The translations under genes and the position numbers were made by a program. Positions 12,931 to 53,560 of a DNA stretch of 64,000 nucleotides are shown one piece after another. Source of the DNA: Thermoleptolyngbya sichuanensis A183 (GTDB taxonomy: Bacteria; Cyanobacteriota; Cyanobacteriia; Elainellales; Elainellaceae); the NCBI RefSeq assembly GCF_013177315.1, contig NZ_CP053661.1:4278001-4342000 (forward strand), written 5' to 3'. Position 1 is the first letter of the stretch, and every line of letters starts with the position of its first letter. The notes beneath the pieces were generated by a model. The model saw nothing but the letters and a program-made list of their open reading frames with translations. It was not told the origin of the DNA and ran no database searches.

Positions 12931-14042
12931 CTTTAGTTTGGACTAACTGGCATCACAATAATGCTCAACAGGATGCCATAAAGAATCTGCTCAACCGTTC
13001 ATAACAGTTGAACTTAAGGAATTGGATACAATCCTGCTCGCAGTTAAGCTGCTGTTGCAACCGGACTGTTCAGGGATTGTTCGGATGTCTTGCGTTTCGA
13101 GGCTCGTTTTTTGACCATCGGATAGCAGGGACGAGGAGTTGGCTTGTGCCCCTTGCCTCGTCCTGGCGATTTACCACGAGGTTTAGGCGCAGGAGCAGGG
13201 GTGCCAATCGCTGCCAAAATGCCTGCAAACGCTTGTGCGACCCGACCCGGAGTCAACGTTTCTTGCGGTGCCTGCCAGGGCAAGGGGTGGTCAGTACAGT
13301 CCTTTCGCGCTAACCACAACTGCCAACTGAGCAACGGCATCAGGCTGCTCCACTGTTCGGTTGCCGATACAGAACTGAACTGGGGATGTGTCCAATATAG
13401 CCTCTGCTTGGCAAAGCGATACCAGTGTTCAATGGCAAAGCGACGGAGGTAGTGCAACCACAGGGTTTCTAACGGAGGCATCTGCTCACCCAGCCAAACT
13501 AACCACAAAGGAGCCAAGCGTCGCGTGCTGCTCTGTGTCTCCAGCACCTCCACGCGCAACACTTCCATTGCCCGTTTGGGGGATTTGCGGAAATGGTATG
13601 CACTCCAACGACTGACCCGCACTCGTCCCCAGTTGGGATCATCGACTTCAACGGTTTCGACCGGGACACTCCAAGTGTCAGGGTCATTGAGTTTCATCTT
13701 ATGTCCATGCTTGGCAGGTGCGCCTCGCCCTCGATACGCTGGGGGCGCGCCATAGACACATCGATTGGATGTAACCCGCAGCAGCAAGTCTGCCTCAATC
13801 CCTGCCGTTTGGTTGACAAAACTGGCATTGCCGTACCCTCGGTCGTAGATCGCCAACGGACGCACCGCTAACTGCCGAGTCACTTGTTTGAGTTGGAATG
13901 CCGCTTTACTGGCGGGTGTTTCAAAGCTGGTGATGCGCTCATGCCGCAATGGTAATGCCCAACTGCCCCTGTCTTCAGCAATCCAGGCTAAGGTACTGTA
14001 GTTTTGTCCGGCTATCGGGGCATGTCCTGTTCTGCCTGATAA

Positions 14043-47869: not shown

Positions 47870-49012
47870 ATGAGCGCCAGCATGAATTCTTCGCCCGTTT
47901 TGCAGCTTCAGCAGGTGACGCATCAGTTTCCCAATCGCCCCGCTCCCACGGTGTATAACCTCAGCCTCGACCTGGAGCCGGGTGAAATTTTGGCGCTGCT
48001 GGGGCCGTCGGGCTGTGGCAAAACGACGCTGCTGCGACTGATTGCGGGCTTTGAGCAGCCCCAGCAGGGGGAAGTGGCGATCGCCGGCCGAATAGTCGCC
48101 AATGCAGATGGCATGGTGCCGCCGGAACAGCGCTCGGTGGGCATGGTGTTTCAAGACTTTGCCCTGTTTCCCCATCTCACAGTGCAGGAAAATATTGCCT
48201 TTGGGCTGGGGAAAGGCGACTCGCGGGGACAAGTGAGCGAGGCGATCGCCCTGGTTGGATTAACCGGATATGAACGCGCCTATCCGCACGAACTGTCGGG
48301 CGGGCAGCAGCAGCGCGTCGCCCTGGCCCGCGCCCTGGCCCCGCGCCCGTCGCTGGTGCTGCTAGACGAGCCGCTGAGCAATCTGGATGTGCAGGTGCGG
48401 CTATATCTGCGGCAAGAAGTGCGGGACATTTTGAAAGCAACGGGCACGACAGCGGTTTTTGTCACCCACGACCAGGAAGAAGCGATGGCCATCGCCGATC
48501 AGGTCGCCGTCATGCGGCACGGGCAAATCGAACAGCAGGGCCCGCCGGAAGCGCTGTATCGAGCGCCCGTCTCCCGCTTTGTGGCGGAGTTTGTCACCCA
48601 GGCGAACGTGCTGCCTGCCCGCTGGAATGGGCAAATTTGGGAAACAGAAATCGGCAGCTTTGACCTGAAATCGAGCCTTTCAGACAATTTCCCGGCATTT
48701 TCAAAAGGGGAAACCGCCGATTTGATGATTCGTCCTGAAGACATTCAAATTCAGCCCAGCGCATCGGGAACGGTGACCGTGGGCGATCGCCAGTTTCTCG
48801 GCCGCGACTATCGCTACACGCTGCTCACCCCCAGCGGCAACAAGCTCTATGCCCGCATCCCCGCCGACCGAACCTCGTCCGCCAGCGGAGCCGCGCCCCT
48901 CCCCCCCGGCACCCTCGTTCACCTCACCATCCACCCCGCCGCCCTGAAACTGTTCCCCACCACAGAGGACGTGGTAGATGGAGCAAAGGGGCGATCGCTG
49001 CCCGTCGCTTGA
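47870..49012 (+). CDS. futC: Fe(III) ABC transporter ATP-binding protein (FutC type)
   Basis: The 380-residue ATPase has Walker A GPSGCGKTT, the signature LSGGQQQR, Walker B LVLLDEPLSNLD and switch His in FVTHDQEEAMA. A C-terminal TOBE-like domain (about 250-360) contains LMIRPEDIQIQPS. FbpC/FutC ATPases energise ferric iron uptake. The divergent permease gene and its architecture support iron; spermidine or sulfate ATPases are related alternatives. Two start codons are possible (47870 or the ATG four codons later). The stop is followed immediately by a heptamer repeat. Confidence 0.88.
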   Translation: MSASMNSSPVLQLQQVTHQFPNRPAPTVYNLSLDLEPGEILALLGPSGCGKTTLLRLIAGFEQPQQGEVAIAGRIVANADGMVPPEQRSVGMVFQDFALFPHLTVQENIAFGLGKGDSRGQVSEAIALVGLTGYERAYPHELSGGQQQRVALARALAPRPSLVLLDEPLSNLDVQVRLYLRQEVRDILKATGTTAVFVTHDQEEAMAIADQVAVMRHGQIEQQGPPEALYRAPVSRFVAEFVTQANVLPARWNGQIWETEIGSFDLKSSLSDNFPAFSKGETADLMIRPEDIQIQPSASGTVTVGDRQFLGRDYRYTLLTPSGNKLYARIPADRTSSASGAAPLPPGTLVHLTIHPAALKLFPTTEDVVDGAKGRSLPVA

Positions 49013-49130
49013 AGAAAAAACGAAGAACGAAGAGGGAAAAACGAAGAACGAAGAACGAAGAACGAAGAACGAAGAACGAAGAACGAAAACCCGCTCTTCC
49101 GTCTTCCCTCTTTGTTCTTCCGTTTAACGT
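49013..49130. repeat. Composite heptamer repeat after futC
   Basis: About ten units of GAACGAA (variants AAACGAA, GAGGGAA) are followed by AACCCGCTCTTCCGTCTTCCC and TTTGTTCTTCCGTTT. The left and right halves are partly complementary, so a long hairpin can form. It starts at the futC stop and ends before the CRISPR leader. Confidence 0.88.
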
Positions 49131-49376
49131 TTCTTTCATTGACTTTTCTGGCGACAGTCTCCTATGATGCGGGTATGGATACGTCATATTCCCATCTCGC
49201 CTGAACCTTGAAAGCCGCATAACTTCGTTGACCAGCGTTGATGCCTTGTTCAGTGGGCAACTCAGACGCTAGAAAGCTAAAGTTTTAAGAAGGAAAATTC
49301 ATTTTTAGACTCCAAAAACGACCACCATCGATTTCTGCTTACGAGGCATTGCCAGGAGCAGGTTTCAGACGGTACT
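49131..49376 (+). promoter_or_regulatory. Putative CRISPR leader
   Basis: These 246 bases before the first repeat have no gene. They include an AT-rich part (about 49278-49310, AAGTTTTAAGAAGGAAAATTC). The piece GTTTCAGACGG just before repeat 1 resembles part of the repeat complement. The leader is placed here because the repeats decay at the far end of the array. Confidence 0.55.
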
Positions 49377-52300
49377 CTTTCAAGCCCATTTCCCCGCAAG
49401 GGGACTGAAACTCGACTTCCGTTTCCGTTTCAAATTCAAAATTCACAATCTTACCTCTTTCAAGCCCATTTCCCCGCAAGGGGACTGAAACAGCCTTAGC
49501 TGGCTGCATGAGGGCGCAGATACCATCACACTTTCAAGCCCATTTCCCCGCAAGGGGACTGAAACTCTGTGGAAATCGAGTGGGCTGACGGCAGCCCGTT
49601 TACATCTTTCAAGCCCATTTCCCCGCAAGGGGACTGAAACCTACTAACCTGAGTTAGAAAAACCTAGCCATAAGTAAACTTTCAAGCCCATTTCCCCGCA
49701 AGGGGACTGAAACTTGCAGCGGCAATAGCCATGCCGCGCACAGCATTGCTTGCATCTTTCAAGCCCATTTCCCCGCAAGGGGACTGAAACACTTCAATAT
49801 GCCACTTTGTGGTCTATAATAAAAAAGCAGCTTTCAAGCCCATTTCCCCGCAAGGGGACTGAAACTCCTGGGAATAAAATAAAAGGCAGCCTACTAGGAG
49901 ATATGTAGTCTTTCAAGCCCATTTCCCCGCAAGGGGACTGAAACTTTCTGTGTCAAATCCTACAATTAAGTCTTCTGTAGACTTTCAAGCCCATTTCCCC
50001 GCAAGGGGACTGAAACATAGGTACTGCGTTTATCCTGATTATTTTGACCAGGTCTTGAAACTCTTTCAAGCCCATTTCCCCGCAAGGGGACTGAAACCTG
50101 ATTATTTTGACTATGTCTTGAAACTGTATTTTATCTGTTATCCCTCTTTCAAGCCCATTTCCCCGCAAGGGGACTGAAACAGTATTCTAGGCACGTTAGA
50201 AAATCAAATAGAGAATTACTTTCAAGCCCATTTCCCCGCAAGGGGACTGAAACCGGTCTAATAGACTTCAAAATAGGCAGATAAAAAAAATCTTTCAAGC
50301 CCATTTCCCCGCAAGGGGACTGAAACAGTAGTAGTTGTAGATACAGTAACGTTAGTATCACTCTTTCAAGCCCATTTCCCCGCAAGGGGACTGAAACAAG
50401 AAGATTAGTGGTAAACATACCTCCCAGAAGTCTTTCAAGCCCATTTCCCCGCAAGGGGACTGAAACAGTTATATAGCTCTTTTTTCCAATATGACCAGGC
50501 ATATCTTTCAAGCCCATTTCCCCGCAAGGGGACTGAAACTATATAGAATACGATAATGGCAATGGTAAGACCGCTTTCAAGCCCATTTCCCCGCAAGGGG
50601 ACTGAAACTTCGAGGGTTTTTCTGAAGTGGACTTAGAGGCAGTAGAGGCTTTCAAGCCCATTTCCCCGCAAGGGGACTGAAACTAATGAAGGCTACTAGT
50701 GCCTTAGAGTACTCTAGGCACGTCTTTCAAGCCCATTTCCCCGCAAGGGGACTGAAACTTGCTCTTCTATGTTGTATAGTTCATTTGTATCTTCAGATTT
50801 CTTTCAAGCCCATTTCCCCGCAAGGGGACTGAAACCGTAGAGTTTGAAATCCTGGGTGAGGATGAAGTGATCGACGACTTTCAAGCCCATTTCCCCGCAA
50901 GGGGACTGAAACGCTCGATTCCAGTTTTAGCAGTGGGTCGCCGCAAACTTTTGACTTTCAAGCCCATTTCCCCGCAAGGGGACTGAAACTTCTTGAATCT
51001 AGTATTGTTTTTAGCTGCAATTATTACTCTTTCAAGCCCATTTCCCCGCAAGGGGACTGAAACGAGGGCATCTGGTATTCCTGTTATTTCCCCGTACTCT
51101 TTCAAGCCCATTTCCCCGCAAGGGGACTGAAACCTTTAGATAATTTATCTACACTTTTTAAAACTATTCCTCTTCTGCTTTCAAGCCCATTTCCCCGCAA
51201 GGGGACTGAAACCTATATTCTGAAAAGCTCGGAATGCTGCAGTCACTTTTCCCTTTCAAGCCCATTTCCCCGCAAGGGGACTGAAACGTTTAAGAGATAC
51301 ATTTTGCCTGCGCCTTGCGGCTTGTACTTTCAAGCCCATTTCCCCGCAAGGGGACTGAAACAATCCACTGACGGTACGAGCTACCTAGCTGCGCGCGGAT
51401 CTTTCAAGCCCATTTCCCCGCAAGGGGACTGAAACTATTATCTTAAGAGTACCTCGTTCTAGTGCCCCTATACAGTCTTTCAAGCCCATTTCCCCGCAAG
51501 GGGACTGAAACCTGGGAGCAAAGCAAAGATAGCCTACTAGGAGATATGTAGTCTTTCAAGCCCATTTCCCCGCAAGGGGACTGAAACGCTTGGCTACTGA
51601 AATGCCACTTCTCCCTAAACTATAGATGATGCTTTCAAGCCCATTTCCCCGCAAGGGGACTGAAACATTTAAAGTAATGACAGCAAATCGGCTAAAGCAG
51701 CAGTACTTTCAAGCCCATTTCCCCGCAAGGGGACTGAAACCGCCGACCTGCTCAACCACAATTTCAAGCTGCCCATTGAAGCTTTCAAGCCCATTTCCCC
51801 GCAAGGGGACTGAAACATAGCTATCTTGCGTAGGGAAAATACTACTGACTTTCAAGCCCATTTCCCCGCAAGGGGACTGAAACCCGTAGTATTTCAGCGT
51901 TGCGACGCTTTTAGGGAACTCCTTTCAAGCCCATTTCCCCGCAAGGGGACTGAAACTGGATAAAATATAAGGATCTATTAGTAAGTAATACGTCTTTCAA
52001 GCCCATTTCCCCGCAAGGGGACTGAAACTTGATTGAATCTACACTTACTATTAGCTATATTAACTTTCAAGCCCATTTCCCCGCAAGGGGACTGAAACTG
52101 TATCCCATAGGGATCATCGGCTAAAATTTTGTTGACTTTCAAGCCCATTTCCCCGCAAGGGGACTGAAACTATATTACAGGAATAAGAATCACTAAAGGA
52201 TATCCTAGACTTTCAAGCCCATTTCCCCGCAAGGGGACTGAAACCCTTGGAATTCGATGAATCGAGTCTTTGACGCTAGAGGGTTTGTCTTTCAAGCCCA

Positions 52301-53068
52301 TTTCCCCGCAAGGGGACTGAAACTTGGTTATCTTCATTTTTGCTTGCCTTTTTTCTCGATTTCTTTCAAGCCCATTTCCCCGCAAGGGGACTGAAACACT
52401 GTGAGCCTACGGGAGTATAACATTCAGAGTTTTTTGCCTTATTGGCTTTCAAGCCCATTTCCCCGCAAGGGGACTGAAACATGCAGGAATAAAGCGTAAA
52501 GGGTAGGAAATTAACCTCTTTCAAGCCCATTTCCCCGCAAGGGGACTGAAACAGAGCAGGCAGTAGCCCTTGAATATACCCCCTAGACAATCCTTTCAAG
52601 CCCATTTCCCCGCAAGGGGACTGAAACTTGTTTTTTTCGTGTAATTCTTGTTGCGTTAGCCATGCTTTCAAGCCCATTTCCCCGCAAGGGGACTGAAACA
52701 ATCGTCTTTCATTAATCAGTGTGCCCTGAAAGTGACTTTCAAGCCCATTTCCCCGCAAGGGGACTGAAACCAAATGCAAAATTTTATATTAATAATAGCT
52801 TAGTAGCAACTTTCAAGCCCATTTCCCCGCAAGGGGACTGAAACTGGGAATTACTTTTCTGCCAATATTGAACGCGCCATTCACTTTCAAGCCCATTTCC
52901 CCGCAAGGGGACTGAAACATCCAAAGCTTTACTACTGCGATAAGAGTCGTGGGCTAAATCTTTCAAGCCCATTTCCCCGCAAGGGGGCTGAAACAATAGC
53001 TTGCGCTAGTTCACGATCTGCTTGACGGCTATTCTTTCAAGCCCATTTTCCCGGAAGGGGACTGAAAC
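49377..53068 (+). CRISPR. CRISPR array, 50 repeats and 49 spacers, no cas genes nearby
   Basis: The 35-bp repeat begins CTTTCAAGCC and ends GGACTGAAAC; its centre CCCC-GCAA-GGGG is a hairpin with a GNRA-type loop. I counted 50 repeats starting at 49377, 49457, 49531, 49606 and so on to 53034, and 49 spacers of 32-48 bases. Repeats 1-48 look identical. Repeat 49 (52960) has one change and repeat 50 (53034) two, so 53068 is the old trailer end and the leader is on the left. The GGGACTGAAAC end and variable spacer length recall cyanobacterial type I-D and III arrays. Minus-strand frames through it encode only repeated FQSPCGEMGLK and are not genes. Confidence 0.98.
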
Positions 53069-53079
53069 GTTTGGGAAAA

Positions 53080-53560
53080 AAGAAGAGTGAAAAACGAAGA
53101 GCGAAAAGTGAAGAACAAAGAACGAAAAATTGCTTTTCCCTTACACAGAAAACCGAAAAATCGTTAGTGTCTCAATTTATTCGCCACTCTCAAAATGACC
53201 AATCAAGAGCAACCATGCTGTAAGGGTTTCAGCGGTTGTCAGATCGAGGTGGCGAAAAACTAAGGACACGAACAAAAATGAAGAACGAAAAACGAAAAAT
53301 CGCTTTTCCCTTGCACAGAGAACCGAAAAATCCGTTCTTCTCCCGTAAAGAAAAAATGAAAAACGAAGAACGAAGAACGAAAAACGAAAAATCGCTTTTC
53401 CCTTGCACAGAGAACCGAAAAATCCGTTCTTCTCCCGTAAAGAAAAAAATGAAAAACGAAGAACGAAAACCGAAGATCTGCCCTTCCCTCTTCGTTCTTC
53501 TATTCTTCGTTCTTCGTTCTTCGTTCTTCCCTCTTCCTTCTTCCTTCTTCGTTTTTCTCC
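53080..53560. repeat. Composite heptamer repeats with a duplicated 80-90 bp unit
   Basis: GAACGAAAAACGAAAAATCGC followed by TTTTCCCTTGCACAGAG and CCGTTCTTCTCCCGTAAAG occurs at about 53280-53361 and again at about 53371-53458. A degenerate third copy lies at about 53110-53165. CGTTCTT-type heptamers follow at 53490-53530 and GGAAGA units at 53530-53555. It starts 12 bp after the CRISPR array and reaches into the purN gene. Confidence 0.88.

Follow-up and report, generated by a model that had tools for sequence, protein, structure and literature searches.

Spacers 7 and 29 of the CRISPR array in the window (array A; the window is the whole 64,000-nt stretch of Thermoleptolyngbya sichuanensis A183 that was analysed) are homologous and end at the same base. 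The pair is a real observation that appears to have an ordinary cause in a known kind of system: it probably reflects repeated sampling of related invaders by an ordinary type III-D system linked to a reverse transcriptase (RT), with a shared end that is coincidental. Anchoring of that end by a motif, as the original prediction proposed, is not supported.

Relationship of spacers 7 and 29

The relationship of spacers 7 and 29 is confirmed by a local alignment score of 47: the highest score reached by chance was 28 over 50 shufflings of the array's 49 spacers, and 30 when all 168 spacers of the genome were used. The two do stop at the same base, and the positions first assigned to them are also correct (Table 1). 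Their exact 3′ identity stands, at a length of 22 bases rather than the predicted 20 (AGCCTACTAGGAGATATGTAGT). Upstream of this block, about eight substitutions and a one-base gap had been described; the gap is present, and the whole alignment of 42 columns contains six mismatches (nine in 41 when aligned without gaps). The 5′ halves are also alike, less strongly (anchored alignment, p ∼0.01), and all differences are confined to them, the difference in length consisting of bases added at the 5′ end. No reading frame is clearly favoured and there is no clear synonymous pattern, which, together with the 1-base gap, suggests that the target region may be non-coding. Hairpin targeting was considered and rejected, as folding was no better than in shuffles.

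With up to three mismatches allowed, the last 20 bases of the block occur in the window at just these two places (0 expected), and in the whole 5.5 Mb genome both its last 19 bases and the full 22-mer match at spacers 7 and 29 only. The host chromosome is thus not the source of the target.

Table 1. Positions in the window of array A, its leader and the spacers discussed in the text
Feature	Position	Strand	Description
Array A leader	49206..49376	+	Also conserved upstream of arrays B and C
CRISPR array A	49377..53068	+	50 repeats of 35 nt (CTTTCAAGCCCATTTCCCCGCAAGGGGACTGAAAC), 49 spacers
Spacer 7	49866..49909	+	44 nt, homologous to spacer 29
Shared block in spacer 7	49888..49909	+	22 nt, identical in spacer 29; abuts the repeat
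Spacer 9	50017..50062	+	3′-terminal 28 nt homologous to the 5′-terminal 28 nt of spacer 10 (26/28); reverse strand FQDLVKIIRINAVP
Spacer 10	50098..50145	+	Variant protospacer that overlaps the one of spacer 9; reverse strand GITDKIQFQDIVKII
Spacer 11	50181..50218	+	5′-terminal 16 nt match the 3′ end of spacer 18 at 15/16; reverse frame NSLFDFLTCLEY, change synonymous; borderline by score
Spacer 18	50684..50723	+	3′-terminal 16 nt match the 5′ end of spacer 11; reverse frame TCLEYSKALVAFI
Spacer 29	51512..51552	+	41 nt, homologous to spacer 7
Shared block in spacer 29	51531..51552	+	22 nt, identical in spacer 7

The array and its type III-D system

The last two repeats of array A, at its right end, are degenerate, which places the leader and the newest spacers at the left. 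Tandem GAACGAA-type heptamer runs lie on both sides of the array (window 49010-49100 and 53070-53560), and arrays B and C have similar runs at their ends.

These three arrays, all of the same family, hold 168 spacers in total: 49 in array A, 102 in array B (on L034, reverse strand, adjoining RT-Cas1) and 17 in array C (on L036). Array A has the same 20-nt repeat core as the array beside RT-Cas1, and a leader of ∼170 bp is likewise conserved across arrays A, B, and C when the 220 bp preceding each are aligned with MAFFT. The sole Cas1 of the genome (C1:3680408-3681190) is part of a 755-aa reverse transcriptase-Cas1 fusion, covered by an RT model on residues 15-295 (7e-98) and by Cas1 models from ∼390 to 750 (5e-84). 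Its RT part is a group II intron-like reverse transcriptase, and Cas2 and Cas6 are encoded nearby.

The operon adjacent to RT-Cas1 encodes Cas10, a Cas7-Csx10 fusion, a double Cas7, Csx19, a CARF membrane protein, and a WYL regulator. Model matches within this one operon include Cas10 (7.6e-122), Cas5_IIId (2e-30), Csx19 (5.7e-36), and Cas7_IIId (8e-150); with Cas10 accompanied by the III-D subunits Csx10 (Cas5) and Csx19, the effector operon is a type III-D system. Judged by its repeat and leader, array A belongs to this RT-Cas1 type III-D system. Because the genome has a single Cas1 and the leader is conserved, array A is most likely an outlying (orphan) array to which RT-Cas1/Cas2 would add spacers from a distance.

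Several further features of the locus were recorded. The fused III-D subunit is an 861-aa Cas7-Csx10 protein (L083:3172-5757) and the double Cas7 a 542-aa protein with two Cas7 domains (L083:5729-7357); these Cas7 proteins show weak similarity to gRAMP (type III-E). Mean spacer G+C in array B is ∼0.40-0.46 in the half nearer the leader and rises to 0.57-0.63 at the old end, which suggests invaders changing over time. That old end runs into four near-identical 191-bp units (L034, reverse strand, 13022-13595), in each of which a degenerate repeat (GGACGGAAAG) is joined to an AACGAA-rich insert of 171 bp.

Further overlapping pairs and their coding sense

All 168 spacers of the three arrays were compared with each other and the scores set against shuffles. 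Four pairs exceeded every shuffle, namely A7/A29 (47), A9/A10 (46), B32/B42 (43), and B14/B22 (37), and a fifth, A11/A18, was borderline by score (27). The original prediction had missed the equally strong pair 9/10 as well as the borderline 11/18 and the two pairs of array B. In A9/A10, B32/B42, B14/B22, and A11/A18 the similarity extends to the limits of the overlap, as overlapping protospacers predict, and these four pairs differ by 1-5 bases over 16-34. In each of the five pairs both spacers have the same strand (one-sided P 0.03), and no pair is split between arrays (0/5, P 0.02). Among relatives, G010 carries an array with a same-strand overlapping pair at an offset of 16. Another relative (G004) has a related pair, spacers 2 and 18 of L101, made of tandem CAGGTCTGC units and probably aimed at pentapeptide-repeat genes.

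The spacers of arrays A and B have a stop-free frame on the reverse strand in 144 of 151 cases, compared with 134 in dinucleotide shuffles (0/500 shuffles reached 144), and no excess of open frames on the forward strand (135 vs 134). The arrays of relatives are biased in the same direction; taken together, 20 spacers are open in reverse only and four in forward only (combined sign test p 0.0015). In B32/B42, where the reverse frame is open in both spacers (GFLLVQKNEFGE / LAGFLLVEKNEF), three codon changes out of four leave the amino acid unaltered; B14/B22 and A11/A18 each have a single change, which is synonymous in reverse, and the reverse-frame change in A9/A10 is I/L. Given this excess of reverse open frames and the mostly synonymous reverse changes, crRNAs are preferentially complementary to mRNA, and thus antisense to open reading frames, both here and in the relatives' arrays, as type III RNA recognition requires. 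Type III systems acquire a coding-strand bias through selection (PMC7515739, PMC8482600); in RT-Cas1 systems, where only a moderate bias was found, it may come partly from RNA sampling (PMC5576922). The bias seen here would fit RNA sampling and also selection for function.

These pairs bear on where the two related targets of spacers 7 and 29 resided. The original prediction placed them in two variant genomes of a recurrent invader. Paralogous or repeated copies within one invader genome could also yield such a pair, and a conserved 3′ half next to a diverged, gapped 5′ half is what a conserved element with different flanks would leave; the remaining pairs, however, differ at few positions and mostly synonymously, like allelic variants of genes, and we regard an origin within one genome as unlikely, though not negligibly so. 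Two separate acquisitions from related targets are upheld by the existence of several further homologous pairs and by the poor fit of duplication and decay, and the recurrent invader is supported indirectly, by those same pairs across the genome.

The shared end of spacers 7 and 29

Homologous spacers that share boundaries, as expected under PAM-guided acquisition, make up one of the five pairs. The offset is 0 at the 3′ end for 7/29 and 18, 5, 16, and 24 for the other four. Taken alone, the coincidence of the 7/29 ends has P ∼0.04; with random offsets, at least one shared end among five pairs has P ∼0.19, so the common stop needs no special cause and is most likely a coincidence. Judging from these five pairs, a small sample whose protospacers were not found, no motif appears to fix the spacer end. 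Type III acquisition has been described as showing no nucleotide preference at or beside protospacers, and a PAM is reported to be lacking (PMC7515739).

The 3′ end of spacers in this genome's arrays is nevertheless not composition-neutral: across arrays A, B, and C the last base is C in 14 of 168 spacers vs 39 expected (p 4e-7; array A p 0.01, array B p 4e-5). This depletion and the exactly matching ends of 7 and 29 are what would favour motif- or end-anchored acquisition, in which RT-Cas1/Cas2 would have captured the two spacers at one discrete nucleic-acid end (a transcript end, a processing site, or a PAM-like motif) that fixed the 3′ boundary. The depletion is weaker in those arrays of relatives whose repeats start with CTTTC (16 vs 25.6, p 0.014), and is not significant when all seven relatives' arrays are pooled (35 vs 40, p 0.18). 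The ends are, moreover, unrelated in the four other overlapping pairs and in the one from a relative, and with the protospacers not found no motif is readable. Anchored acquisition is accordingly improbable. More specifically, RT-Cas1 might take spacers from defined RNA ends or processing sites, in which case homologous transcripts of variant invaders would give spacers with a common 3′ boundary and a last base that is not random; we hold this to be very doubtful.

Duplication of spacer 29 from spacer 7, or the reverse, followed by decay inside the array, which the original prediction had itself set against its reading, would suit two spacers of the same orientation in one array but is extremely unlikely, since a copied unit decaying at random would not leave every change and the added bases in the 5′ half, 48 of 50 repeats identical and without substitution, and unrelated, unduplicated neighbours on both spacers.

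Source and size of the sampled pool

No protospacer for the 7/29 pair was found, exact or degenerate, in IMG/VR, INPHARED, PLSDB, GTDB genomes, or 386 genomes of the phylum. The exact 19-mer of the shared block had no match in IMG/VR; neither the exact 18-mer in GTDB genomes nor the 22-mer, with 2-3 mismatches allowed, in 36 genomes of the order and 386 of the phylum matched outside this genome's array. A 15-mer matched 40 IMG/VR contigs, which were rejected because their flanks match at the random rate (25%). Searches by blastn of spacer 7 and of the whole array against phages and plasmids gave chance-level matches and CRISPR repeats only. Peptides inferred from the overlapping spacers gave nothing by tblastn against phages and PHROGs, and back-translated patterns searched in IMG/VR and GTDB gave no matches or unrelated, out-of-frame ones. 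A match of spacer B86 to the prophage contig L064 was judged to be chance. Searches with the spacers of Arthrospira RT-Cas1 arrays failed to find matches in the same way (PMC5513706).

Overlapping spacers offer a way to study a target without its protospacer: they show that targets were drawn on more than once, from a single strand and within coding frames, and they allow the size of the invader pool of this RT-Cas1 system to be roughly estimated. Counting pairs as random overlaps of at least 16 bases and assuming uniform sampling, the rough estimate is ∼19-29 kb, one strand, for array A (three pairs, or two without the borderline one, among 49 spacers) and 140-170 kb for all three arrays (five pairs, or four, among 168 spacers).

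Repeated sampling of related invaders, the reading we prefer, would then run as follows. The machinery would draw again and again on a small pool of related, mostly AT-rich invaders, presumably mobile elements, so that some protospacers overlap. Spacers 7 and 29 would have been acquired independently, from variant copies of a single region, and their common 3′ end would be one coincidence among about five overlapping pairs.

Comparison with known systems

The closest parallels come from three systems. The RT-Cas1 type III arrays of Arthrospira platensis (Silas et al. 2017, PMC5513706) likewise combine a cyanobacterial RT-Cas1 with type III, have spacer pools nearly without matches in any database, and have pools that are mutually disjoint between arrays, as does this genome, where no pair crosses arrays; there, however, the system is III-B with a second Cas1, whereas here it is III-D with no Cas1 besides RT-Cas1. 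Vibrio vulnificus (Gonzalez-Delgado et al. 2019, as cited in PMC9048733) shares the RT-Cas1 fusion with type III-D; according to that citation acquisition from RNA was tested there, whereas the spacers here may come from RNA or from DNA. Type III acquisition in Thermus thermophilus (Artamonova et al. 2020, PMC7515739) resembles the array described here in spacers complementary to transcripts and probably also in the lack of an adjacent motif. It differs in that acquisition was followed as it happened, the phages were known, and no reverse transcriptase took part.
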